From NCBI GenBank assembly GCA_030017475.1, contig JASEIO010000007.1, forward strand, positions 1 through 51,736: a DNA stretch of 51,736 nt. The letters run 5' to 3'. The notes under the pieces were generated by a model. The model was given only the letters and a program-made list of their open reading frames with translations, was not told the DNA's origin and did not search any database. A program made the position numbers and the translations under genes. Within the stretch, counting starts at the first letter, position 1, and the number at the start of each line of letters is the position of its first letter. Shown here piece after piece: positions 29,217 through 50,251 of the stretch. Source of the DNA: a bacterium (GTDB taxonomy: Bacteria; UBA9089; JASEIO01).

Positions 29217-31205
29217 CTACCTCCATCCCAGAACAACAAGGGACGTAGCAGCGTAGGGAGTGGATCCTTTGATTAGACTATACATCCTTTCTATATCTAT
29301 TGCAGCCCTTACTGCTTCAAGTTTTAATCTATCTGGTAATAGCCAAAACCAGCTACCTAAATTTAAAAATTTGGATATCCCCTTATAGACCTTGTCAACA
29401 GTTAATTTTATCTCCTCTCGTGTTACATCCATTAAGTCCTCTATCTCTAAATCATGCGAAAGTAGATATATGCCTTCTACATCTAAAACTGAAAGCCCTT
29501 TCATTACCAAAGCTTCAGCCCATATGTATCCATAGATTAAACCTAAGAAGTGGAAAAGATAAATGGAGCCTTCCTTTTTTATATATGGAAGCTTATCTTC
29601 ACCTATTCCAGGAAATAGACTTAGCTTTAATCTCATTCCCAATCTCCAATCCCAAAGGGCTTGTCCTTTACCGTGAAATACCTTTTTTGAAGGTAGAAGC
29701 CCGCCTTTTTCTTTTACCCATACCTTAGAATCCCACACCTTTTGAACCATCCATAACTTCCCTTTTAGAACAAAGGAAGGAGATAAACCCTCTATCTTAC
29801 CTACTACCCCTCCAGTTGCTCCATCAATTACTTGATATTCTTCTCTTTTCTTCTCAATATTGGAATGGATAAGACCCCTTTCAACCAAATATTCGAGTTT
29901 CTCTCCTATAAAGAGAAGTCCCTGAACGCCACTTTTTAGATAATCCATATCTATAAGATGATCTATAATAATCTTTATCTCAACCTCATCCAGGGAGAGG
30001 GGTTGAAGGATATGTACAATGGAGGAAATTGGAGTACCAGTCCTTCTTTTTTGATAAACATAGGAGAAGATTTGCTGGCAGGCTACTGAAAGCCTTGGAG
30101 TATATATCTCCTCTTCTATCCAACCATGCTTTACTGAGCGAAACATGACCTCAAATAATATCCTTTCCCACTTATTGGAATATAGACCGAAGCTTGTAAT
30201 CTTATTTTCCCTTCTATTTCCCCTTCCCAATCGCTGAAGAAGCGAGAAACATGAGGAAGGGGGTGAAACGAAGACTACGGCATCTATATCTCCAATATCA
30301 ATTCCAAGTTCTAAGGTCATGGTTGCTGCTATTATACCGAGTTTTGCACGGTTAAATTCCTGCTCTACAACCTCCCTTTCTCGCTTGTTTAGGCTTGCAT
30401 GGTGTACCCATACAAAATGGGAATATGGCCACGCCTTCTTAATCTTTAATGCTATATCTTCTGCGCTCTTTCGGGTATTACAAAAGATCAAAACTTTACA
30501 CAAGCCTTTTTTCTTAAATTCAGAAAGAATGGATTTTATATCTCCAGAAAATTTGTGTAAGGTATAATCAATCTCTCGTGGAGTACGATCGACAATTATA
30601 TCAAAATCCGAAAAATACCTCCTACCTATTTTATAAGGATAGGAGATAGTAGCTGAAAGACCATAAAAATGTAGTGTCTTTTTTCTTAACAACTTAATCC
30701 TTTCAAGTAATACCCTTAATTCATCCCCTCGATAGGTATTATCATAAAGGTGAAGTTCATCAAGGCATATAACCCTTAAGTTCCGAAATACCTTTGGATG
30801 ACGAGAAAGGAGGGAATCAAAGGATTCAGGGGTAGTGAGTAAAACTTGTGACGGGGAACGAGGATCAAAATCTTGTCTATCCCCTGTTTTTCTTTTGATC
30901 TCAATCCCTAAATAATCCAATGGTGGTTTTAATCTTCTATACAGATCATTTACCAAGGCCCTTGTAGGAGTGATATATAAGACACTTAAACCTTGCCAGG
31001 TCTCATCCTGTAATAGCCTTGCTATAGGGGCACAAACCGCTTCTGTTTTGCCGGTTGCTGCTGGAGAAACAAGAAGGAGGTTCCTTTTAGATAGGATAGA
31101 AGGAATAGCCTCCCTTTGGATAGGGAGTAAGTGAGTATAATGCGAGAAGAAGGCATCCCAAACCCGGCCTAAACTCTCTTTTATTTCAAGATCCTTCTCT
31201 TTCAT
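29217..31205 (-). CDS. Lhr-like DEAD/DEAH superfamily 2 helicase (BrxHI-like)
   Basis: The 662-aa protein has helicase motif I SPAATGKT (47-54), Ia TPTRALVNDLYRRL, DELH (149-152), motif III SATIS, and motif VI QRLGRGNRR (324-332). A helical Lhr-type C-terminal part of about 300 residues of unclear function follows. ATG 31205 lies nine bases from a TATAAC -10 box, so the mRNA is nearly leaderless; TTG 31211 is also open. Family knowledge: Lhr-like helicases of this size accompany BrxC/BrxD-type ATPases in BREX (BrxHI) and TerB-linked operons. Two such ATPases lie at 35855-38508, beyond a GC-rich insert. It could also be a stand-alone repair helicase. Confidence 0.88.
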   Translation of the reverse strand: MKEKDLEIKESLGRVWDAFFSHYTHLLPIQREAIPSILSKRNLLLVSPAATGKTEAVCAPIARLLQDETWQGLSVLYITPTRALVNDLYRRLKPPLDYLGIEIKRKTGDRQDFDPRSPSQVLLTTPESFDSLLSRHPKVFRNLRVICLDELHLYDNTYRGDELRVLLERIKLLRKKTLHFYGLSATISYPYKIGRRYFSDFDIIVDRTPREIDYTLHKFSGDIKSILSEFKKKGLCKVLIFCNTRKSAEDIALKIKKAWPYSHFVWVHHASLNKREREVVEQEFNRAKLGIIAATMTLELGIDIGDIDAVVFVSPPSSCFSLLQRLGRGNRRENKITSFGLYSNKWERILFEVMFRSVKHGWIEEEIYTPRLSVACQQIFSYVYQKRRTGTPISSIVHILQPLSLDEVEIKIIIDHLIDMDYLKSGVQGLLFIGEKLEYLVERGLIHSNIEKKREEYQVIDGATGGVVGKIEGLSPSFVLKGKLWMVQKVWDSKVWVKEKGGLLPSKKVFHGKGQALWDWRLGMRLKLSLFPGIGEDKLPYIKKEGSIYLFHFLGLIYGYIWAEALVMKGLSVLDVEGIYLLSHDLEIEDLMDVTREEIKLTVDKVYKGISKFLNLGSWFWLLPDRLKLEAVRAAIDIERMYSLIKGSTPYAATSLVVLGWR

Positions 31206-31214
31206 TAACAATAT

Positions 31215-31242
31215 GTTATACCTTTTCCAAATAACATGTCAA
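31215..31242 (-). promoter_or_regulatory. Promoter of the helicase gene, near-leaderless
   Basis: The minus strand reads TTGACA (31242-31237), a 16-base spacer and TATAAC (31220-31215). The predicted start at about 31208 is only about three bases before ATG 31205, and no ribosome-binding site fits. Confidence 0.65.
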
Positions 31243-31475
31243 CTGTTTTTCTATAGATATAGGATCACCATACTAATACAGCAGTCTTAATCTCCTCAAG
31301 ATAATTTTTAATATAGTGAAGACCATGCCAGACTTTAGAATGAAGGTAGGCAAGCCGCTGAAGGTGGTGGATGATTATGATGGCCGAAGAACGATACATG
31401 CCTTTAAGGTAATGTGTATTTGACCTTCAAAATACCGAAAAAGTTTTTGACGGATACTTAGTGTGGTTGTTACGA
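31243..31475. other. Gap between helicase promoter and GC-rich cassette
   Basis: No gene is supported here. Base composition changes inside it: 31261-31320 has 18 G/C of 60, while 31321-31380 has 29 of 60. A plus-strand frame from ATG 31325 (MPDFRMKVGKPLKVVDDYDG) runs for only 32 codons and matches nothing I know. It may be a relic at the edge of the transferred block. Confidence 0.4.
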
Positions 31476-32717
31476 TCATTCATACCGCAGGGCTTCGACT
31501 GGATCGAGGCTGGCTGCCCGCAGGGCCGGATAGAGTCCGGAGAGGATACCTACCAGGATTGAGACAAATAGACCCAGGGTGATAAAATAGGTCGAAAGCA
31601 GATTGGGCATTGAGCTTACGGCCTCAATGATCAATGTCGCCGCAATGCCGAGTCCACACCCGAACATCCCCCCAATCAGACTTATGACTACTGCCTCAGT
31701 CAAAAATTGGAGGAATATATCCCTATTCCGTGCCCCAAGGGACTTACGGATACCGATCTCACGGGTACGCTCAACAACTGAGGAGACCATGATGTTCATA
31801 ATCCCAATTCCTCCAACCAAAAGGGAGATGATGGCCGAGATGACAGCTATCCAGCCGACCGTGCCTAAGATGGTATTCGTCGTCTCGATATGCTGCTGCA
31901 TGGTCTCAGATTCGTAATTGAATTTTCCCTTATGCCTCCTCTTTAGAATCTCTTTGATCTCTTCGGCCGCCTCATTGGCCACATCGGATGAAGTGGCCTG
32001 GGCTGCAATCAACCAGACCTCTTTGCTATTCAACTCTTTTTGGAGAACAGAGATGGGAATGATGAGCCTGCGGTTGTGCTCCATAACCTGACCGCTCACT
32101 CTGGCCAAAAGGGGTGTATCCTTTCGTTTGAGAACACCAACAATGGTATACTTTCTCGACTTCCCCCATCTTTTGGTAATATAGATCTCTTCTCCCACTG
32201 GCTCTGTTCCCTTGTCAAAGAGCCTCTCGGCAATCTCTGCCCCAACAACACAAACCCTGCGCCTGGTATCGATGTCTTGCTGACAAAGGAAACGGCCAGA
32301 GGTAATCTCCTCGTTACGAATCTCTTTATAGGAAGGTGTTGTCGCCTTTATCTGAACCCGGCAGTATTTCCCTTTGTAATGGGCCCACGCAATCGGAGAC
32401 TCATTCACCGGGGCAATCCGGGTAATCTTTTGGCACTTCCCTTTGATCGCCTCTAAGTCATCGAGGGTGATGGCCTCACCACTTCGGTCAAATCTGTTCG
32501 GATCCTCCTCTTTCCACCAGGGCCGCCAGACAAAGACCGACCTTAACCCCAGGGTCTCAAGCTCATCCAGAATGGCATCCCGGCCGCTCATCCCAATAGC
32601 CCCAACGATGACAACAGCACTCACGCCAATAATAACCCCCAACAAGGTTAAGGCGGTTCGCAGCTTGTTGGCCCCCATATTGGAGAGGGCAATCCTGACG
32701 TTGACAAAAAGGCTCAT
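31476..32717 (-). CDS. MacB-like ABC transporter permease
   Basis: The 413-aa protein begins [20 protein letters not shown], has the first helix ALTLLGVIIGVSAVVIVGA, a large periplasmic domain and three C-terminal helices with the FtsX motif VVERTREIGIRKSLGA. It overlaps the ATPase gene by four bases. With the adaptor and TolC genes upstream it completes a tripartite efflux set of the MacAB-TolC kind, exporting unknown substrates. Codon use is GC-richer than in the flanking genes. Confidence 0.93.
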   Translation of the reverse strand: MSLFVNVRIALSNMGANKLRTALTLLGVIIGVSAVVIVGAIGMSGRDAILDELETLGLRSVFVWRPWWKEEDPNRFDRSGEAITLDDLEAIKGKCQKITRIAPVNESPIAWAHYKGKYCRVQIKATTPSYKEIRNEEITSGRFLCQQDIDTRRRVCVVGAEIAERLFDKGTEPVGEEIYITKRWGKSRKYTIVGVLKRKDTPLLARVSGQVMEHNRRLIIPISVLQKELNSKEVWLIAAQATSSDVANEAAEEIKEILKRRHKGKFNYESETMQQHIETTNTILGTVGWIAVISAIISLLVGGIGIMNIMVSSVVERTREIGIRKSLGARNRDIFLQFLTEAVVISLIGGMFGCGLGIAATLIIEAVSSMPNLLSTYFITLGLFVSILVGILSGLYPALRAASLDPVEALRYE

Positions 32718-33376
32718 ACAACCCTTCCATCGCTCAGATGGACAATCCGGTCGGCCAACCCTGTCTTGGTCTCATCATGCGTGACCAGGATGATGGTCTT
32801 TCCTTGTCTGTGCATCTTATGAAAAATGGACATGATCTCCTGGCCTGTTTTGCTATCCAGGTTCCCGGTTGGCTCATCGGCCAGGATAATATCTGGATTA
32901 TTGACCAGGGCCCGGGCAATGGCCACCCGCTGCTGCTCCCCGCCAGAGAGCTTGTTTGGATGATGATTCATTCGGTCTGCCAGACCAAGAGTAGTCAGAA
33001 TTTGAGCAGAAACCTCCCGACGCCTTTTGGTTGTAACGCCAGCATAGATAAGGGGTAGACCAACATTCTCCAGGGCATCCATTCTGGGCAGGAGATTGAA
33101 GGACTGGAAGATGAATCCTACTTTTTTATTGCGGATCCTGGCCAGCTCATCATGTGATAGACGATTGACATCAAGCCCATCCAAAATATACCGACCAGAC
33201 GTTGGCCTCATCAGGCAGCCAATGATGGCCATCAGTGTGGACTTACCAGAGCCGGATGGCCCCATAATGGATATGAATTCCCCTCGCTCTATCTCTAAGC
33301 AGACATCCTCAAGGGCTTTCACTTTCCCCTCACCCATCGGATAGAACTTACTGATTCCATCAATCTGGATGATCAT
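32714..33376 (-). CDS. MacB-like ABC transporter ATP-binding protein
   Basis: The 220-aa ATPase has Walker [11 protein letters not shown]-loop [16 protein letters not shown], signature [15 protein letters not shown] and Walker [12 protein letters not shown], the standard pattern of the MacB/LolD group. In E. coli MacB, ATPase and permease are one chain; here they are separate genes overlapping by four bases. It belongs to the GC-rich block with the permease, adaptor and TolC genes. Confidence 0.95.
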
Positions 33377-33438
33377 TATACCTTCGTTCCCAACTTAACT
33401 TTACACCTTTGACAATGTCAATTCTGTAAGGTTAAAGG

Positions 33439-34418
33439 TCATTTGGTCTTCTTCCTGACCCTATCCTGATCCCTTAGGTTGAGTCCATGGGGAATGATGA
33501 TCTCATCGCCCTCTTTAAGGCCAGAGATGATCTCTATCTGGTCAATGCTGCTGATGCCGGTTGTTACCTCTTCTTTTTTTGCCATACCCCCAGAATAGAC
33601 AAAGACAAAACTCTTGCCCTCCTCCTCTATTAATGCCCCCAGGGGAAGGGTGAGGATATCGGATTTTCTATCGGTGATTATCTTGACATCGACCTGGTTG
33701 CCTATCTTAAGATTCCCGGATGAATTCAACCTAAGGGTTGTCTTAACCACAGTCGCATTCTCCTTGATCTCGGCCTGGGGGGCGATCTTTACTACCTTTG
33801 CCTTAAACTCACAATCCGGCAGTCCCTCGCTGGTAATAATGGCCGTCTGGCCCACCTTTACCTTGGGAATATCCACCTCGTCGATCTCTACCTCTATTTC
33901 TAAGCTGTCTATATCTGCCACGACAAAGAGGGGCTCCCCTAACCCCACCGCCTGGCCATCCTCTATCTTTTTGGCTATCACTACGCCGGATTGGGGGGAG
34001 ATGACCCGAAGCTTTGAGAGCTTGACCCTGGCAAGGGTCAACTCCTCCTGGGCCAAATTTACCTGGACAAGGGCCCGGTCGTATCTTGTCCGATCGTTAT
34101 CTGCCTAAGTCTATTCTCGGCCTGGGAGAGACTATTTTCGGCCTCTCTGAGGTCAAATCTGGCCAATTCCTCATTCTTCCTGACCCTATCCCCTTCATCG
34201 ACCAGGACCTTTTTGATTACACCACCTGTCTGGGCAAAGATGGTCGTCTTTGAAGAAGAGGTAATCCGGCCCACATCTGTGAGGCTTGAAGTAATTTCAC
34301 CCCTTTTGATTATAGTGGTCTCTACGATGGGAATACCGGGCTCTTCTCTCTGCCAGAGCCTGTATCCAACCAAAACTACCACTATCAATCCCATAAAGAT
34401 AAAGAGGGTCTTTTTCAT
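33439..34418 (-). pseudogene. MacA/HlyD-like periplasmic adaptor, interrupted by a frameshift
   Basis: The 5' part (ATG 34418 to stop 34059) encodes an N-terminal anchor, the biotinyl-lipoyl half-motif GGVIKKVLVDEGDRVRKNEE and the start of the coiled coil (AENSLSQAENRLR). The rest continues one frame back: DRTRYDRALVQVNLAQEELT, the second lipoyl half SPQSGVVIAKKIEDGQAVGL, and barrel domains to 33439. Homology switches frames between about 34105 and 34060. One extra base near the AGGC at about 34101 would restore a protein of about 325 aa. TTG 34056 could start the second piece, but that piece alone lacks the anchor. It is either a real mutation that breaks the pump or a sequencing error. Confidence 0.85.
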
Positions 34419-34468
34419 TGATTATTCTGATATTAGTGTTGGTATCCTTTACACGGGATATTGAGTAA

Positions 34469-35848
34469 TCACTGTGCCTCCATAGCAATTCCCACAGCCC
34501 AGTTGAACCTGGCCCTGGCTATCTGGTAGTCTATGATGGCCTCGATAAATCTTGTCTTGACCTTGCTCAGGGTAGTCTTGTATTCATTGACATCATTAGA
34601 GGTGATTGTTCCTACATTGAATTGGAGCTTGGCGATTCTCAAATTCTCTTGGGCAAGACCAACATTCTCTCTCATCGTTTCAATCCGCTCACTGGCTGAA
34701 GTCAACCGGTGGAAGGCCTCCCTGACCTCCTTTACGATCTCCTTCTCTTTCTCTGTGCGCCCATACTCGGCTCGCGCCAAACCAGATTCAGCCTCTTTTA
34801 TTCTACTCTGGGTCAGGCCCCCATCGAAAAGGGCATAATTTACGTTTAGCCCAATGCCCCAGCGTGTGGCCTTAAAATTCTGCAGGGCATCTGCATAGTC
34901 CTTGTCCATCCCGGCCCAACCATAATTGGCCACAACACTCACCTTGGGATATCTTCCGCTTTTGGCCGCCATGAGTGCGGCCTTTCTAGCCTGGACCTGG
35001 TGTCTGAACCTGGCAAGCTCAGGCCTTCTCTTTAGGGCACACTCGATGGCCTCATCCATATCTATTATCCTGGACAAGGGGGTGAAATCTGGCTTATCAG
35101 TGGGGACAATTCCTATCTTGAATCCAATATTAAGGAGGACCTTAAGTTCGTCCTCAACCTCACGCCTTCTGGTCCGGGCCTGAATCAATTCATCCCTTTG
35201 GTTGGCCAGGTCGACCTTCGCCTGCTCCACCTCTACTGGCGCAATAGTTCCCTGAGAGAGCCGAGAGGTAGCCAGCTCCAGTGTCTCCTGGTGGTAGGAA
35301 ACCATCTCCTCAGCGAGCCTTACCAGAAGATCGGCCCGAACAAGTTCCCAATAGGCCTTCATCACCTCAAGGATGAGTCCCCTTTTTGCGGTTTCATGGT
35401 CACACTCAGCTATTCTGAGGTTTGCCTCAGCCTCTCTAAGAGAACCTGTAAGCCTTCCGCCCGTATATATATTCTGGCTAAGCCCCAAACAGAGACTATT
35501 GCTCCATTGAGAGGTTAAGGGTGGGTGAATCTCATAGGTCTGGCCAAGAAATTCAAATGTCTGCGGCTCACCTGCCACACTGAGGGTCTCATCGAAACCC
35601 ATCCCAAGGCTCAAGTTAAGGCCAGGATACCATTCTGATCTAACCTCCCCGACTACGGCCTTGCTGCCAATAACCGCCTCCTGCGTCCTTTTTAAGCCCA
35701 GGTTATTCTCCAGGGCTGTCCTGATGGCCTCTTTTAGAGAGAGATTCTTTACCTCCTCACAGATGCCCCCAGCACAGAATACCACCACAAGGCCAAGTGC
35801 CAGGGTCCATATGGCTCTATTCAAAGACCTCCTTCCTGCAAGGCGCAT
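34469..35848 (-). CDS. TolC-family outer-membrane efflux protein
   Basis: The 459-aa product has a signal peptide (RAIWTLALGLVVVFCAG) and two long helical halves typical of TolC: LSLKEAIRTALENNLGLKRT, the repeated AxxxLxxAEANLRIAE pattern and LTQSRIKEAESGLARAEY. It would form the trimeric outer-membrane channel for the adjacent pump. ATG 35848 is only seven bases after the stop of the upstream P-loop ATPase gene. A TTG six to ten codons in, next to AAGGAGG, is an alternative start. GC content is high: 34981-35040 has 34 G/C of 60. Confidence 0.93.
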   Translation of the reverse strand: MRLAGRRSLNRAIWTLALGLVVVFCAGGICEEVKNLSLKEAIRTALENNLGLKRTQEAVIGSKAVVGEVRSEWYPGLNLSLGMGFDETLSVAGEPQTFEFLGQTYEIHPPLTSQWSNSLCLGLSQNIYTGGRLTGSLREAEANLRIAECDHETAKRGLILEVMKAYWELVRADLLVRLAEEMVSYHQETLELATSRLSQGTIAPVEVEQAKVDLANQRDELIQARTRRREVEDELKVLLNIGFKIGIVPTDKPDFTPLSRIIDMDEAIECALKRRPELARFRHQVQARKAALMAAKSGRYPKVSVVANYGWAGMDKDYADALQNFKATRWGIGLNVNYALFDGGLTQSRIKEAESGLARAEYGRTEKEKEIVKEVREAFHRLTSASERIETMRENVGLAQENLRIAKLQFNVGTITSNDVNEYKTTLSKVKTRFIEAIIDYQIARARFNWAVGIAMEAQ

Positions 35849-35854
35849 GAGACC

Positions 35855-37204
35855 TCATAGGTTTGTCTCTTCACCATAATGTCTATATAGATCCATCCAA
35901 TCTACACAACTTTTTACAAAAAATCGAATCTCCCGATCATCCGCAAGTATCAATTTATGGAAGATGTCTCTTTTTGATTTATCAACGAGACGGAAGGGAG
36001 AAAATGCCTGTTCGTATAATTCTATGAGTCTTTCAAACATTGCCTCTATATCTTTTCTTGAAAGGCGGGATAGTTGAATTACCTTATCCTCTGCTACAAG
36101 GGAACGGATTTTCTCATAATAATAATGAAAAGAAGGGGTTAAAGCAAAGATGAGAAAAATATGGTTTGGAAGTTCATATGAATAGGGTAAGGACCTCATA
36201 CCAGAGTGTATTAGTCCAAATCTATCAATCCTACCAACACCAGGGAAACCTTCACCTTTATTTTCCATGGCAAGTTGAGTTAAAGAAGGGTCATTTTGTG
36301 CCAACCTTATCAAGCCTTGGTAAAAGTAAAAACCATACTCTGCCCTATACCAAAGGCGAAAAAGGGTTTCGGCTTCATCTATAATAATTATAAACCCTTT
36401 TGCTCCAATCTCTTTTAATATATAACCCCACCCACTTAATAGATAACAATAGATATCTACTGCAGGGGTATGATTTAGAAGAACAGGAAGACGCCAGTAT
36501 TTACAAAAATTGAGATAATCACGGGATAGGATCTCACCTCCTATCCAGTTCCATAATATATCAAGCCCTTTATTATTTTTTAGAAGTGGAAGTGCCTTGG
36601 AGAAGAAGGTATGGAATTTTGGAAAAGAGATATCCCGGGCCTTAAAGATTATATCTTGAAAATTCAATTCTTCTTTATCAGTCCTTAGCCTTAAAGAACG
36701 AATGATCTCTCGATATACATGCTTTGGTCTGAAGGGCGAAACATCAAATGGATCAAGCTCCACTCTTGCGACTGCATATCCCGATCTTAATAAACTACAA
36801 TGGATATAATCAAGCAAATGGGTTTTACCTGATCCATATTCTCCTTCTAAGATTATAACCCCTCCTTTCTTTTCCCTAAAGAGCTCAAGTTCCTCTTTCA
36901 GCCTTTGTAATTCCTTTTCCCTTCCAAAGGTAAAGTCCTCTATAGCAAAATAAGGAACTATACCAAGCCGGAAGGCCTCAATCAGCTTTCTTGATTGGAA
37001 GTCTCCGTATTTGATAGGTCTGACCTTGATAGGAAGGGTTCCCCTTTTCTTCTTTTTTATTGGTTTGATAACACTTAGGGCATCTCTTCTAACCCATAAC
37101 ACAGGACCTTGATCAAACTCTATTTGCAATTGCATCCCTCTAAACCTTTGGTCAAGTACCCTTCCTTTACCTAAAAATGGGTGTAAAACCGAACTACCAA
37201 CCAC
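35855..37204 (-). CDS. P-loop ATPase, BrxC/BrxD-like, with N-terminal CarD/Tudor-like domain
   Basis: The 449-aa protein starts at GTG 37204, with GAGGAGG upstream. Residues 1-46 (SSVLHPFLGKGRVL, IEFDQGPVLWVRRDALSVI) resemble the small beta-barrel of CarD or the C-terminal tail of UvrD/PcrA, which bind polymerase or nucleic acid. An AAA-type core follows with Walker A GEYGSGKTH (121-129) and Walker B FIIIIDEAE (271-279). The GxYGxGKT form and EAE Walker B match the DUF2791 (BrxC/BrxD) group and its neighbour. It begins two bases after the upstream ATPase stop. The specific function is unknown; nucleic-acid remodelling is inferred. Confidence 0.75.
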   Translation of the reverse strand: MVGSSVLHPFLGKGRVLDQRFRGMQLQIEFDQGPVLWVRRDALSVIKPIKKKKRGTLPIKVRPIKYGDFQSRKLIEAFRLGIVPYFAIEDFTFGREKELQRLKEELELFREKKGGVIILEGEYGSGKTHLLDYIHCSLLRSGYAVARVELDPFDVSPFRPKHVYREIIRSLRLRTDKEELNFQDIIFKARDISFPKFHTFFSKALPLLKNNKGLDILWNWIGGEILSRDYLNFCKYWRLPVLLNHTPAVDIYCYLLSGWGYILKEIGAKGFIIIIDEAETLFRLWYRAEYGFYFYQGLIRLAQNDPSLTQLAMENKGEGFPGVGRIDRFGLIHSGMRSLPYSYELPNHIFLIFALTPSFHYYYEKIRSLVAEDKVIQLSRLSRKDIEAMFERLIELYEQAFSPFRLVDKSKRDIFHKLILADDREIRFFVKSCVDWMDLYRHYGEETNL

Positions 37205-37206
37205 CT

Positions 37207-38508
37207 TTAAAACTCCTCCTCTTCAGCCTCCGCTGTGATATCCCTTTCTAAATCCCTTATCTCATCCCTTATTATCCTTTGGGCATCTTTCTTACTGACA
37301 GTACTTCGAGGGTTCTCTTTTAGCATATGAAATCCCTGGATCACCGATTTTACAAAAACCCTCCTATAACCTACATCTGCATACCTCTCTTCAAAGGACC
37401 CCTCTGCAAATACTGAAATAGTTTTCTTTAGACTTGCTCGGTCAAAACTAAAAGGAGAATAAGCTATTTCATATATCCTTCCCAATCTTTCTCCAAGCTC
37501 TGTAAGAAAGCGAGGAGGTGACAATTCCAGATGCTCAAGTTGGATCCTTACACCTGATGGATTTACACGGCTAATCGTCCCACTCAATCGCTGTCTTAAG
37601 GCCTCATATACCTCTAATCTTTCCTCAAGCAATTGTCGCTCATCTGGGATGGCATAGAAGATCATAACCCCTGGTAACCTTACATTTCCACATTCATCTA
37701 TAAGTTGTCTTAAATTATCTAATGCCATTCGCTTCTCCCTGGATGTTGCTATGCTCATCCCCCGTTCTGCTTCATCAAAGAGTAGAATAATTCCAGAATA
37801 GCCAATTTCCCGAATGTATTGAGCCAGAGATCTTATCAACCTAAAGGCTGTTGTTTTATCAAGCTTCTCTGTTATCCCAAATCTATTTCTTATCTCCCGA
37901 TCCACCTCCTCACCCTTTAACCACTGAATTATCCCATTATAGGAAGAATTGTCTTCCTGCAAGGTTAAAAAGGCGTGCCTTACAGCATTTTCGAAACTCG
38001 AACTTTCTATTCCTGAGATGGATCTTACGTAACTTTCTATCATTTTACTTTCCTTGAGCTCCTCCATCTTGGTTACATACCAACTTCGTATAAAGGGGTC
38101 TATCCCTTTCTCATAATGTTTAGTCAATTCTTCTGAAACACGAGGATACATAAGGTTTGCCATTATGCTTTTATATACCAACTCAAGTCTATTGAAAGGA
38201 CACTCTGTTGGAGATAAAGGGACATAACTTACAACATAATTCATTTTCCAGGCAATATCCCTTACACAATAAAGAAAATGTGTTTTACCACCACCATAAT
38301 TTCCAATAACCAATTTAAATGCAGAACCCCCCATCTTTATAAAGCTCTCGAGGTATTCCTCTTCAAGTAACCTAAGATAAGGAGAAAGTCCAACAGTGAA
38401 ATGCTCCACTCCAAATTCAGGTGGTGTACCAGTTCCGCCAAGTTGATTGATTATTACCTTTCCATGCATGGGTTCTAAACCGCTATTTTGAGATGGATAA
38501 GTAGGCAT
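37207..38508 (-). CDS. BrxD-like P-loop ATPase (DUF2791 family)
   Basis: ATG 38508 has CAGGAGG with an eight-base spacing, giving 433 aa (the frame is open to 38577). The protein shows the BrxD pattern: HFTVGLSPYLRLLEEEYLES, Walker A GNYGGGKTH (69-77), YVPLSPTECPFNRLELVYK, the Walker B ILLFDEAE (241-248), LRQLIDECGNVRLPGVMIFY and a sensor-like region LRQRLSG. In BREX types that carry it, BrxD is an ATPase of unclear role partnered with a helicase. It overlaps the upstream unknown gene by 26 bases and is followed two bases later by a second ATPase. No PglX or PglZ gene is in the window. Confidence 0.82.
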   Translation of the reverse strand: MPTYPSQNSGLEPMHGKVIINQLGGTGTPPEFGVEHFTVGLSPYLRLLEEEYLESFIKMGGSAFKLVIGNYGGGKTHFLYCVRDIAWKMNYVVSYVPLSPTECPFNRLELVYKSIMANLMYPRVSEELTKHYEKGIDPFIRSWYVTKMEELKESKMIESYVRSISGIESSSFENAVRHAFLTLQEDNSSYNGIIQWLKGEEVDREIRNRFGITEKLDKTTAFRLIRSLAQYIREIGYSGIILLFDEAERGMSIATSREKRMALDNLRQLIDECGNVRLPGVMIFYAIPDERQLLEERLEVYEALRQRLSGTISRVNPSGVRIQLEHLELSPPRFLTELGERLGRIYEIAYSPFSFDRASLKKTISVFAEGSFEERYADVGYRRVFVKSVIQGFHMLKENPRSTVSKKDAQRIIRDEIRDLERDITAEAEEEEF

Positions 38509-39307
38509 ACCTCGTTCCTCCTGTAAGGCAGGAATCAGGGACAAAAATCGTCTGCTCCTTTGACCTTGTTGCATCATAGGTAGCTATAAAAAGAGAAAGT
38601 TTATCTTTCTCCTTGGATAGCTTTAATCTATAAAGGTCGTATCCGAAAGCAGCCCTTGAATATTCTCGGAAGTTTGCCTTAGTGGGAGAAGCCTTAAATT
38701 TCTTATCCTGCATAAGAAAAACAAGCTCCCTTAAGACTTCAATGATAGGTACCTTATCCTCTACCTTCTTTTCGTTAATTCGTAACACCCTTTTATATGC
38801 CTCAAAAAGGCGTGATTTGAAGTCTTCTGCCTTCCAATCCTTACATGTCAGTTCATTTTCAAACCTCGAAATAGCCTCTACGATCTGCGCAGGTTCTGGT
38901 TTCACCTTCTTTATAAACTCAGGACCCCAAAAAAGGGAAACTACACCTCTTTCAAATTCAGCCTTTATCAGATAAAGTCCAGCATAAAGATTGGGATATT
39001 GTCCATGTAATCTAAATCCTTTTTGACGTAAAAACTCCTCAAGCTCCTTGCCAAATTTAAACCTCACCTCCTGCTTTAATCTTTGGATTAACTCTTCCTC
39101 AGGTTTGATCCAATTTAGGACCTTATCCTTCACCTTCGAAATAGGATAATCTGATCTTATGGACTTTTTGATTTGAGAAAGCGTGGTCTCAAGTTTATAC
39201 ACATTATTCAACGGATCCTTTTTAAGTCCTTTGAACTCAGTAAAAAGCCTCAATAGACCCTTTATCTTTTTTTGTAAATCCTTAAGTTCACTGGTAATCT
39301 CCTCCAT
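38483..39307 (-). CDS. Protein of unknown function, first gene of the ATPase operon
   Basis: ATG 39307 is favoured by GAGGT six bases upstream (ATG 39313 is too close to it). The 274-aa product has a coiled-coil N-terminus (about residues 1-30), a basic helical middle and a C-terminal part with AAFGYDLYRLKLSKE and TIFVPDSCLTGGTRYAYL, predicted mixed alpha/beta. I recognise no domain, signal peptide or membrane segment. Position and overlap with the BrxD-like gene make it a likely adaptor or DNA-binding partner of the two ATPases; this is inference. Confidence 0.75.
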   Translation of the reverse strand: MEEITSELKDLQKKIKGLLRLFTEFKGLKKDPLNNVYKLETTLSQIKKSIRSDYPISKVKDKVLNWIKPEEELIQRLKQEVRFKFGKELEEFLRQKGFRLHGQYPNLYAGLYLIKAEFERGVVSLFWGPEFIKKVKPEPAQIVEAISRFENELTCKDWKAEDFKSRLFEAYKRVLRINEKKVEDKVPIIEVLRELVFLMQDKKFKASPTKANFREYSRAAFGYDLYRLKLSKEKDKLSLFIATYDATRSKEQTIFVPDSCLTGGTRYAYLSISK

Positions 39308-39346
39308 TTTCATACCTCGATTAGCAACTCCATCGGTATATATAGA

Positions 39347-45729: not shown

Positions 45730-46665
45730 ATGGGAATACAAGGTATAAAAATCTATCAAAGAATAAATGTCAAGGAACCAATTATGATAGCTGGATGGCC
45801 AGGGATGGGAAATGTAGCCTTGGAAAGTATCGACTATCTGCGTAGGAGATTAAATGCAGTTGCCTTTGCTGAGATTGATATGTGTCAGTTTTCAGCTCCA
45901 GATATGATTATTGTTGAAGATGGTGTAACGAAATTACCTGAACTGCCAAGGCAGGTATTTTATTATACTGCAAAACATCCAAATTTGATTATCTTTGAAT
46001 CGGAGGCTCAATTAGGGGGGATAGCAGGTGTAAATTTGATGGAAAGGATTTTAGATTTAGCCCAAGAACTCAAGGTCTGGCGTATCTATACTGGAGCAGC
46101 ATTCCCTTTGCCTATAAGTCATAAAGAGCCATCCACAGTTTTTGGGGTGGCAAATGAAAAACATTTAAAAGATTTTCTCATAGATTATAAAGTGAAGATA
46201 ATGGAGGAAGGCCAAATATCTGGCTTAAATGGATTGTTGTTAGGATTCGCAGCGAAAAGGGGTATAGAGGCTATTTGTTTGTTAGCTACTATGCCGCAAT
46301 ATGCCATAAACTTCCCTAATCCGAAGGCCTCTAAAGCCATAATTGAGGTTCTTGGGGAGATATTAGATATCAAAGTAGATATGATGAAAATAGACCTTTT
46401 AATTCAGGAGATAGACAAAAAAATGGATATGATTGAAGAGAAGATAAAGGGAATCTTTCCAGAGGTAGAGAAGAAGGATGTTGAAGAAGTGGATTTGGAA
46501 AGTGAAAAGGTTCCAAATTACATAATGGAAAAGATAGAAAAACTTTTTAAAGAAGCCAAGACAGACAAGAAAAAGGCTTATGCACTAAAAGAGGAACTTG
46601 ATAGATGGGATTTATATAAGTTGTATGAGGATAGATTTTTGGATCTGTTTAAAGAGCACCAATAA
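45730..46665 (+). CDS. PAC2-family protein (proteasome-assembly-chaperone-like)
   Basis: The 311-aa product has the PAC2 pattern: PIMIAGWPGMGNVALESIDY at the start, FSAPDMIIVEDG, NLIIFESEAQLGG, VWRIYTGAAFPLP, and GLNGLLLGFAAKRGIEAICL. A lysine/glutamate-rich helical C-terminus of about 90 residues follows. PAC2-type proteins are common in archaea and actinobacteria and rarer in other bacteria. Their role outside eukaryotic proteasome assembly is unknown. It has a consensus promoter but no clear ribosome-binding site. No proteasome gene is nearby. Confidence 0.85.
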   Translation: MGIQGIKIYQRINVKEPIMIAGWPGMGNVALESIDYLRRRLNAVAFAEIDMCQFSAPDMIIVEDGVTKLPELPRQVFYYTAKHPNLIIFESEAQLGGIAGVNLMERILDLAQELKVWRIYTGAAFPLPISHKEPSTVFGVANEKHLKDFLIDYKVKIMEEGQISGLNGLLLGFAAKRGIEAICLLATMPQYAINFPNPKASKAIIEVLGEILDIKVDMMKIDLLIQEIDKKMDMIEEKIKGIFPEVEKKDVEEVDLESEKVPNYIMEKIEKLFKEAKTDKKKAYALKEELDRWDLYKLYEDRFLDLFKEHQ

Positions 46666-47749: not shown

Positions 47750-47778
47750 TTGACATGAACAGAAATATAGGTTATCCT
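47750..47778 (+). promoter_or_regulatory. Promoter of sepS
   Basis: TTGACA (47750-47755), a 17-base spacer and TATCCT (47773-47778). Predicted start at about 47785, giving a leader of about 11 bases that holds the AGGTGAG ribosome-binding site. Confidence 0.65.
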
Positions 47779-47795
47779 TAAATAGGTGAGGTTAG

Positions 47796-49271
47796 ATGGA
47801 ATTTGGAAGGGAACATCCTGTCTGCAATCTGATTCAAAGATTTCGGGAAATCTTTCTAAGGTTTGGGTTGAATGAGGTTATAAATCCTGTGATTATTGAT
47901 GAAAGGGATGTTTATTTACAATACGGTGAGGAAGCACCTTTAATCTTGGATAGGGTTTATTATTTGGCGGCCTTGGATAGGCCAGATATTGGTTTGTCAA
48001 AAGAGAGATTAGAAAGGATTAAAGAAATAATTCCAGATTTTGATATTAGGAAAAGGGAAATCCTCCAAGGGATATTCCGCAGGTTTAAAGAAGGGAAGAT
48101 TGAATCAGATGATTTTGTAGAGGTTTTAGTGCATGAACTTTCGATTATGGAATATCAAGCCTTGGATTTAATCGATATATTTCCAGAGTTTAGGGAACTA
48201 CGGCCTGTGCCAACGAAAAAGACCTTAAGGTCTCATATGACAGCTTTATGGTATAAGACTTTGGCCTCTTTGCAAGATAGGGATGAACTACCAATCAGAC
48301 TATTCTCAATAGGCTATAGATTTAGAAGAGAGCAAAGGCAGGATGCAAGACATCTTTTTGAATCAAATTCTTCTTCCATTGTAATCATGGATCCGAAATT
48401 TTCTCTTAAAGATGGATTTTCGCTTACCTCCAATATTCTAAAAGAGTTAGGATTTACTTGTAATTTCAAGCAAAAAGATGTTACCTCTCACTATTATCAA
48501 GAAGGCACAGATACAGAGGTCTACATAGATTATGAAGGAGAAGAGATCGAGGTGGCAAATCTTGGTTTTTATTCGAAGAGGTCTTTATCCAATTATGGAA
48601 TAAGATATCCTGTCTTTAATGTAGGATTTGGTGTGGAGAGATTAGCCATGGTATTATCTGGTATACATGATATAAGGGCCTTAGTTTATCCTCAATTTTG
48701 TAAAGAGGAGATATTGATGGATGAGGAGATAGCCAAAACGATTGGCTTGGAAAAAGAACCTAAGTCGACAGAAGGAAAGGAATTGGTAAATGACTTAATA
48801 GATTCTGCTATCTCAAATAGGAATAAGATTGGTCCAGTGGAAGTCCTCGGATTTGAAGGAAGGTTCTTAGAAAGGGATATTAAGGTATGGATCTATAATT
48901 GGGATGAAGGAAAGGAATTGTTAAGTAAGGCAACCTTCAATGAGGTATGGGTCTATAATGGAAGTATAGCTGGGCTTCCAAAAAAGGAAAAGGTGGATCA
49001 TATCCCAGAATCTTTCTTAAAGATTTATGAAAATGGGATAAATACACACCTTCGGTTTATTGACCTTATAATTAAAAGGTTTGTTAGTGAGTTAGAGATA
49101 AATATAAAAAAGGGTGAGAGATCTTGTGATCTGAGATTTAAGATGATAAAAGGACCCCGAGAGATCAATCTAAAAATTCCTGACAGGATTTATCAATATA
49201 TCTCAAGTCATAACAAAAAGATATTAATAGGTGGCCCCCTCTTCTTTGGTATTAAGGCAGAGCTTTTTTAA
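47796..49271 (+). CDS. sepS: O-phosphoserine--tRNA(Cys) ligase (SepRS), archaeal type
   Basis: The 491-aa class II synthetase aligns along its whole length with archaeal SepRS as I remember it: FGREHPV, EVINPVIIDERDV, KKTLRSHMTALWY (142-153), motif 2 FRREQ (176-180), SSSIVIMD (192-199), motif 3 FNVGFGVERLAMVL (274-287) and the C-terminal anticodon domain FNEVWVYNGSIAGLP (381-395). Residues thought to hold phosphoserine (His147, Thr149, Ser192, Ser194, Asn275) are kept. It charges tRNA-Cys with phosphoserine, which SepCysS then converts to Cys. About 40 N-terminal residues of archaeal forms are missing; the AGGTGAG site supports this start. No sepCysS (pscS) or cysS is in the window. Confidence 0.9.
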   Translation: MEFGREHPVCNLIQRFREIFLRFGLNEVINPVIIDERDVYLQYGEEAPLILDRVYYLAALDRPDIGLSKERLERIKEIIPDFDIRKREILQGIFRRFKEGKIESDDFVEVLVHELSIMEYQALDLIDIFPEFRELRPVPTKKTLRSHMTALWYKTLASLQDRDELPIRLFSIGYRFRREQRQDARHLFESNSSSIVIMDPKFSLKDGFSLTSNILKELGFTCNFKQKDVTSHYYQEGTDTEVYIDYEGEEIEVANLGFYSKRSLSNYGIRYPVFNVGFGVERLAMVLSGIHDIRALVYPQFCKEEILMDEEIAKTIGLEKEPKSTEGKELVNDLIDSAISNRNKIGPVEVLGFEGRFLERDIKVWIYNWDEGKELLSKATFNEVWVYNGSIAGLPKKEKVDHIPESFLKIYENGINTHLRFIDLIIKRFVSELEINIKKGERSCDLRFKMIKGPREINLKIPDRIYQYISSHNKKILIGGPLFFGIKAELF

Positions 49272-49273
49272 AG

Positions 49274-50251
49274 ATGAATGGAAGGATAATTACCCATTCA
49301 GATTTTGATGGAATTGTTTCAGCATCACTTTGTTCTTATGTTTTGAAGATTGAGCATATTATCTTTACTTCACCATTCGCTATAATAAGATCTTTGATTC
49401 CAATCACTGATCGAGATATTGTCTGCGACCTTCCATACCCTCTCAAATGCAGTATATGGTTTGACCATCACGAAGGAAACCTACAGGAATTAGAACATCG
49501 AAGGATTGATCCATCTACCATTAAAGGAAGGTTTGCCTTACTTGATAGTTGTAGTAGAGTAATATACGAATATTTCTCTGAAAAGACAAAGCTTCCAACC
49601 TATTTTGAAGAGACTGTTTCGGAGGCAGATTTGATTGATAGTTTCGGATACCAAAGTATAGAAGAATGGAAAAGGGAAACTCCGGGCAGTATAATAAATA
49701 ATTCTCTAAAGATAGGGAATGAAGACCAAAGAGAGGAAAGGCGTTACCTGAAAGAGTTGACCTTTCTCATTCGGGATAATCCTATAGGAGAGATTATATC
49801 CAATCCAAAGATTAAGGAAAGGTACAATAAATACAAAGATGAAGAAGATAGAATGCTACATATAATTTCGGATAGCTCCTATTTTCTACCTCAAGATGTA
49901 GGTCAGGAAATAGTAGTTATTGACCTAACAAGATACAATAGAAGACCCAATATCATCAAAAATTTGGCTTATCTATTATATCCAAATGCCCTTTCTGTGT
50001 TAGAGATTAATAACCTATTTGAAAAGGGGATAAAGACTAATAACCTGAGTTTTTCAATGTCTTTAGGTATCAATCTTAATAGTATAATGAAACATCGAAA
50101 GAATATAGGAGAGATAATGAGAACCTTAAATATGGGCGATGGTCATCCAGGTGCTGCCTCAGGAAGGATAATCTGTAAATCTAAACCGGAGATGTTAAGA
50201 ATGAAGAAAGAGATTATAGATAAGATTTATGAATTGTGGTCTTCACAATAG
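49274..50251 (+). CDS. DHH-family phosphoesterase
   Basis: The 325-aa protein has motif I ITHSDFDGIVSASL (Asp10, Asp12), motif II DIVCDLPY (Asp52), the DHH triad in IWFDHHEGN (64-66), motif IV SEADLIDSF and a C-terminal DHHA1-like GDGHPGAASGRI. DHH proteins cleave nanoRNA, pApA, cyclic dinucleotides or polyphosphate; the exact substrate is not determinable here. It starts two bases after the sepS stop with no good ribosome-binding site, so it is probably translated by coupling. A functional link to SepRS is unproven. Confidence 0.85.
   Translation: MNGRIITHSDFDGIVSASLCSYVLKIEHIIFTSPFAIIRSLIPITDRDIVCDLPYPLKCSIWFDHHEGNLQELEHRRIDPSTIKGRFALLDSCSRVIYEYFSEKTKLPTYFEETVSEADLIDSFGYQSIEEWKRETPGSIINNSLKIGNEDQREERRYLKELTFLIRDNPIGEIISNPKIKERYNKYKDEEDRMLHIISDSSYFLPQDVGQEIVVIDLTRYNRRPNIIKNLAYLLYPNALSVLEINNLFEKGIKTNNLSFSMSLGINLNSIMKHRKNIGEIMRTLNMGDGHPGAASGRIICKSKPEMLRMKKEIIDKIYELWSSQ

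Follow-up and report, generated by a model that had tools for sequence, protein, structure and literature searches.

Synthesis of cysteine on its tRNA, through the O-phosphoseryl-tRNA synthetase SepRS and its partner enzyme SepCysS, is already known from a few bacterial lineages. SepRS/SepCysS pairs of Chloroflexi and Candidatus Parcubacteria were published in 2017 and were active in vitro on bacterial tRNA-Cys with A37 (Mukai 2017, PMC5424206), and a SepRS with an N-terminal ThrRS editing domain was reported in 2022 from Desantisbacteria-like bacteria and Nitrospirae HyVt-268 (PMC8762117). Here the pair is found in most of a small bacterial phylum, and the analysis centres on the SepRS gene (sepS) of contig JASEIO010000007.1 (the window, i.e. 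the whole stretch of 51,736 nucleotides analysed), which belongs to a genome of 1.64 Mb that is 98.5% complete with 0.18% contamination (G000). A working SepRS and SepCysS would make cysteine on tRNA-Cys in this organism and would probably be its main or only source of cysteine, a reading given a probability of about 0.86.

The system resembles that of Chloroflexi and Candidatus Parcubacteria (PMC5424206) in pairing SepRS and SepCysS in a bacterium with an A37 tRNA-Cys, in a SepCysS without the 8-residue insertion and in the presence of methanogen-type homocysteine genes, which co-occur with SepCysS in Chloroflexi. It differs in that the two genes do not share an operon, in that the anticodon domain of SepRS is largely retained near the 1-methylguanosine-37 (m1G37) motif, with just a 3-residue gap relative to M. 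jannaschii, and probably in the phylum concerned. Like the SepRS of Desantisbacteria-like bacteria and HyVt-268 (PMC8762117), the window protein is without the extension, but unlike it there is no editing domain, and PF08915, the model for that domain, has no match anywhere in the genome. The phylum may be the Desantisbacteria-like group itself, because the fusion form was reported there (PMC8762117). With methanogen SepRS (M. jannaschii 2du7, 41% identity; M. maripaludis 2odr, 38%) the protein shares its family, catalytic motifs and phosphoserine-pocket motifs, whereas it lacks the archaeal N-terminal extension and its tRNA-Cys has A37 instead of G37.

Judged by its sequence, the open reading frame (ORF) is a genuine, complete SepRS. 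It scored 452.7 bits against the NCBIfam model TIGR00470 (sepS; curated cut-off 380.65) over profile positions 42-532 of 533, and all solved SepRS structures (2du7, 2odr and 2du3) matched residues 2-490 with E-values of 1e-98 to 1e-107. Pfam recognised the class II core as PF01409; the C-terminal anticodon-binding domain is present, the TIGR00470 alignment reaching its penultimate position, and PF18006 in this region fell slightly below its cut-off of 26.9 (25.8 bits, E 1.1e-05). When the SepRS proteins of the phylum were aligned with those of two methanogens, RSHMT 145-149, S194, N275-x-G277 and the class II motifs were invariant and S192 nearly so; the RSHMT stretch, the Ser pair and Asn-x-Gly make up the phosphoserine pocket described in the literature. 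The profile scores ruled out that the ORF is PheRS alpha or some other enzyme of class II, with PheS (80.8 bits) far below its cut-off and PylS (36.4 bits) also under its own. An AlphaFold model (predicted local distance difference test 78.9, predicted template modelling score 0.59) added little, since Foldseek ranked SepRS entries first with TM-scores of only ~0.38. A previous annotation based on the letters of the window, here called the sequence-only reading, had recognised a full SepRS with class II motifs and pocket among bacterial core information genes, and these points held: RpoB, RpoC, L1, L7/L12, L10, L11 and NusG of the window are all bacterial.

The start of sepS is fixed because an in-frame TAG (47793-47795) directly abuts the ATG, with the Shine-Dalgarno-like AGGTGAGG upstream, and therefore some 40 N-terminal residues of the archaeal forms are truly absent, as had been claimed. 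The claim that a ribosome-binding site and a good promoter confirm this start survived for the former only. The sigma-70-like match TTGACA-17-TATCCT would give a leader of only ~10 nt, and promoter-like sites in the region (14) were no more numerous than in shuffles (10.9 ± 3.9), so that the match was given no weight as support for the start.

The SepCysS of the same genome (Table 1) keeps CxxC and a third Cys, making three conserved Cys. Upstream of it, in the same direction, lie genes for a NIL-ferredoxin protein, HcyBio/DUF39, LarE, a sulfide-dependent Thi4, a ferredoxin, SufB and SufC, with an MnmA gene on its 3' side; parts of this sulfide-assimilation cluster also stand beside SepCysS in G012, G008, G018 and G003. 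A cysteine desulfurase-family protein is encoded in the genome, and no SepCysE adjoins SepCysS within the 12 kb that were read, no genome-wide search for it having been made. The U73 and A37 of the only tRNA-Cys recur in the tRNA-Cys genes recovered from relatives. Cysteine in this organism is probably made mainly or only by the tRNA-dependent route, since a search for homologues of cysteine synthase and cystathionine beta-synthase (CBS) found none: neither this genome nor any SepRS-bearing genome of the phylum gave a cysK-, cysM- or CBS-type match at E <= 1e-20. In the proposed scheme SepRS would charge the single tRNA-Cys(GCA) with O-phosphoserine and SepCysS would then exchange phosphate for sulfur to yield Cys-tRNA-Cys; this would feed translation, with protein turnover or deacylation releasing free cysteine, and CysRS would load onto the tRNA any free cysteine that turnover or uptake provides. 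These steps are transferred from characterised enzymes, the present contribution being the genes, motifs, tRNA and absences at the stated thresholds; from these we infer enzyme activity, the sharing of one tRNA-Cys by both synthetases and sulfide as the sulfur source.

Three observations count against this scheme. CysRS is intact in the genome (571.9 bits, 486 residues, bacterial, after gltX), so that tRNA charging by itself does not require the SepRS route; SerA was not found in the genome at E <= 1e-30; and SepRS and SepCysS sit on different contigs. An intact CysRS, together with the uncertain phosphoserine supply that the undetected SerA implies, would suit a redundant SepRS, with CysRS charging imported cysteine and SepRS-SepCysS playing a minor or conditional part. 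The supply of phosphoserine is indeed only partly accounted for, because SerC was found but SerA was not; there may be an alternative source or an assembly gap, and of the other 18 genomes in the phylum, 14 have a SerA above cut-off. Redundancy nevertheless seems unlikely, given that no cysteine synthase was found, that the SepRS pocket and the catalytic Cys residues of SepCysS are conserved, that the sulfide-assimilation cluster is retained and that CysRS-less relatives must depend on SepRS-SepCysS. The sequence-only reading had envisaged a genome with SepCysS and without CysRS; SepCysS is there, but the intact gltX-cysS pair rules out a CysRS-less state for this genome, and that state seems to hold in several relatives instead.

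SepRS, SepCysS and CysRS were compared in all 19 genomes of the phylum set, the window's own included. SepRS exceeded the TIGR00470 cut-off in 12 of them, and CysRS was absent at E <= 1e-20 in 10. All three proteins are present in the window genome, G017 and G001, while six genomes have SepRS and SepCysS without CysRS (G003, G006, G007, G008, G010 and G018) and G002 has SepRS with neither SepCysS nor CysRS. The four genomes of family f6 have CysRS only and are SepRS-less, and three of them hold the only cysKM matches in the phylum. The seven SepRS-bearing, CysRS-negative genomes are 95-100% complete; the chance that all seven lack CysRS through assembly gaps alone is ~1e-11 under independence, with CysRS fragments weaker than 1e-20 hidden by the search threshold. 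These seven relatives suggest obligate indirect cysteine coding in bacteria. SepRS appears to be long-established in the phylum, with CysRS loss following in several lineages, and it is likely that those lineages would have all Cys codons served by SepRS-SepCysS while the window genome keeps both routes. Nearly all bacteria are regarded as having CysRS, and the patchwork of its presence and absence within one bacterial phylum is the unexpected and most interesting part of the results. No CysRS-lacking bacteria were found in the literature, nor, in the available parts of PMC5424206 and PMC8762117, a statement that some bacteria are without CysRS, the supplementary tables of both papers aside. 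Since families with both routes, with CysRS only and with SepRS-SepCysS only occur together, a swap of aminoacylation route can be followed here, and the same phylum could show when cysteine synthase is lost. The results also tie bacterial tRNA-dependent cysteine synthesis to a cluster of methanogen-like genes for sulfide assimilation. The varied N-terminal forms of SepRS may serve genetic code expansion.

Degenerate SepRS homologues have been described (PMC8762117), and the gene could instead encode a repurposed relative of SepRS whose amino acid specificity has changed, as reported for some Thermoplasmata. That is highly improbable here: the window protein retains the Asn-x-Gly that the Thermoplasmata proteins have lost (here N275-V-G277) together with H147, M148, T149 and S194, and SepCysS is present in the genome. 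SepRS is mostly archaeal, but misassembled or contaminant archaeal DNA is barely conceivable and was rejected on contig context, GC content and the phylum-wide clade: the gene stands on a single contig of 51.7 kb that also carries the bacterial rpoBC and ribosomal genes, its GC of 0.35-0.38 (0.353 at 48-50 kb) resembles most of the window, genome contamination is 0.18%, its clade mates are 51-58% identical to it against 38-41% for methanogens, and a chimeric contig is very unlikely because 11 other phylum genomes carry SepRS and all twelve proteins form one clade.

That clade stood opposite the methanogens with support of 100/100 in a tree of the twelve phylum proteins and only two archaeal sequences, and every family with more than one member was monophyletic. 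The tree thus bears out the distinct bacterial clade suspected earlier, but the missing N-terminus is not its mark, as three N-terminal forms exist within the one phylum: an archaeal-like extension (f8), a PF08915 fusion (G001, G006 and G008) and neither of these (the window genome, f3, f7 and G003). A partial SepRS match at a contig end in G012 was below cut-off, and sampled genomes outside the phylum gave weak below-cut-off matches to the catalytic core only, as PheRS would give. The SepRS locus of G006 is the same as that of the public metagenome-assembled genome (MAG) JASEGY01, isolate Yes70-08, and that of G017 the same as in MAG SBAY01, labelled Nitrospira sp. Bin_21_1. SepCysS occurs in two types, that of the window genome and a divergent one with the 8-residue insertion in G001 (L072), G007 (L067) and G010 (L073). 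Bacterial SepCysS was said in 2017 to be without this insertion (PMC5424206), a statement to which the predicted insertion-bearing proteins are an addition. These three are 36-42% identical to the SepCysS of the window genome, which would fit a separate origin or a replacement.

Table 1. Features of the window and of the rest of its genome; positions refer to the window unless a contig or locus is named
Feature	Position	Strand	Evidence or remark
sepS (SepRS), 491 residues, without N-terminal extension	47796..49271	+	TIGR00470, PDB matches, pocket residues
Shine-Dalgarno-like AGGTGAGG	47784..47791	+	sequence read directly
Sigma-70-like match TTGACA-17-TATCCT	47750..47778	+	10/12; weak evidence
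DHH-like phosphoesterase ORF	49274..50251	+	PF01368 E 0.0026 (below cut-off); DFDG and DHH motifs
SepCysS	G000:C47:4448-5554		523 bits, cut-off 365.25
tRNA-Cys, sole copy	G000:C11:17944-18016		bacterial-type, anticodon GCA, U73, A37
SerC	L134 1465-2547 (own genome)		530.7 bits
Patch of raised GC	31000-36000		GC 0.42-0.50
Two adjoining BrxC/BrxD-type ORFs	35855-38577		under BREX BrxD cut-off
276-residue neighbour of the BrxC/BrxD-type ORFs	38483-39313		weak SspC match only
Double-length UvrA, 1798 residues	39463-44859		more than one match per UvrA model
PAC2-family protein	45730-46665		NCBIfam matches below cut-off

The DHH-like ORF begins 2 bp 3' of sepS and is probably co-transcribed with it; none of its Pfam matches exceeded the cut-off, and no homologue was found in the sepS neighbourhoods of the relatives examined. 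Elsewhere in the window, a patch of raised GC, set against 0.35-0.40 in the rest of the contig, holds genes for a MacB-type ATP-binding cassette (ABC) exporter and for HlyD-like and TolC proteins and is a possible transferred segment. Two adjoining ORFs carry BrxC/BrxD-type ATPase domains, and no other genes of BREX (bacteriophage exclusion) were identified adjoining them. In the UvrA of double length a single ORF joins two UvrA units in tandem, giving a size like that of the 1809-residue model PRK00635, and the PAC2-family protein is proteasome assembly chaperone-like.
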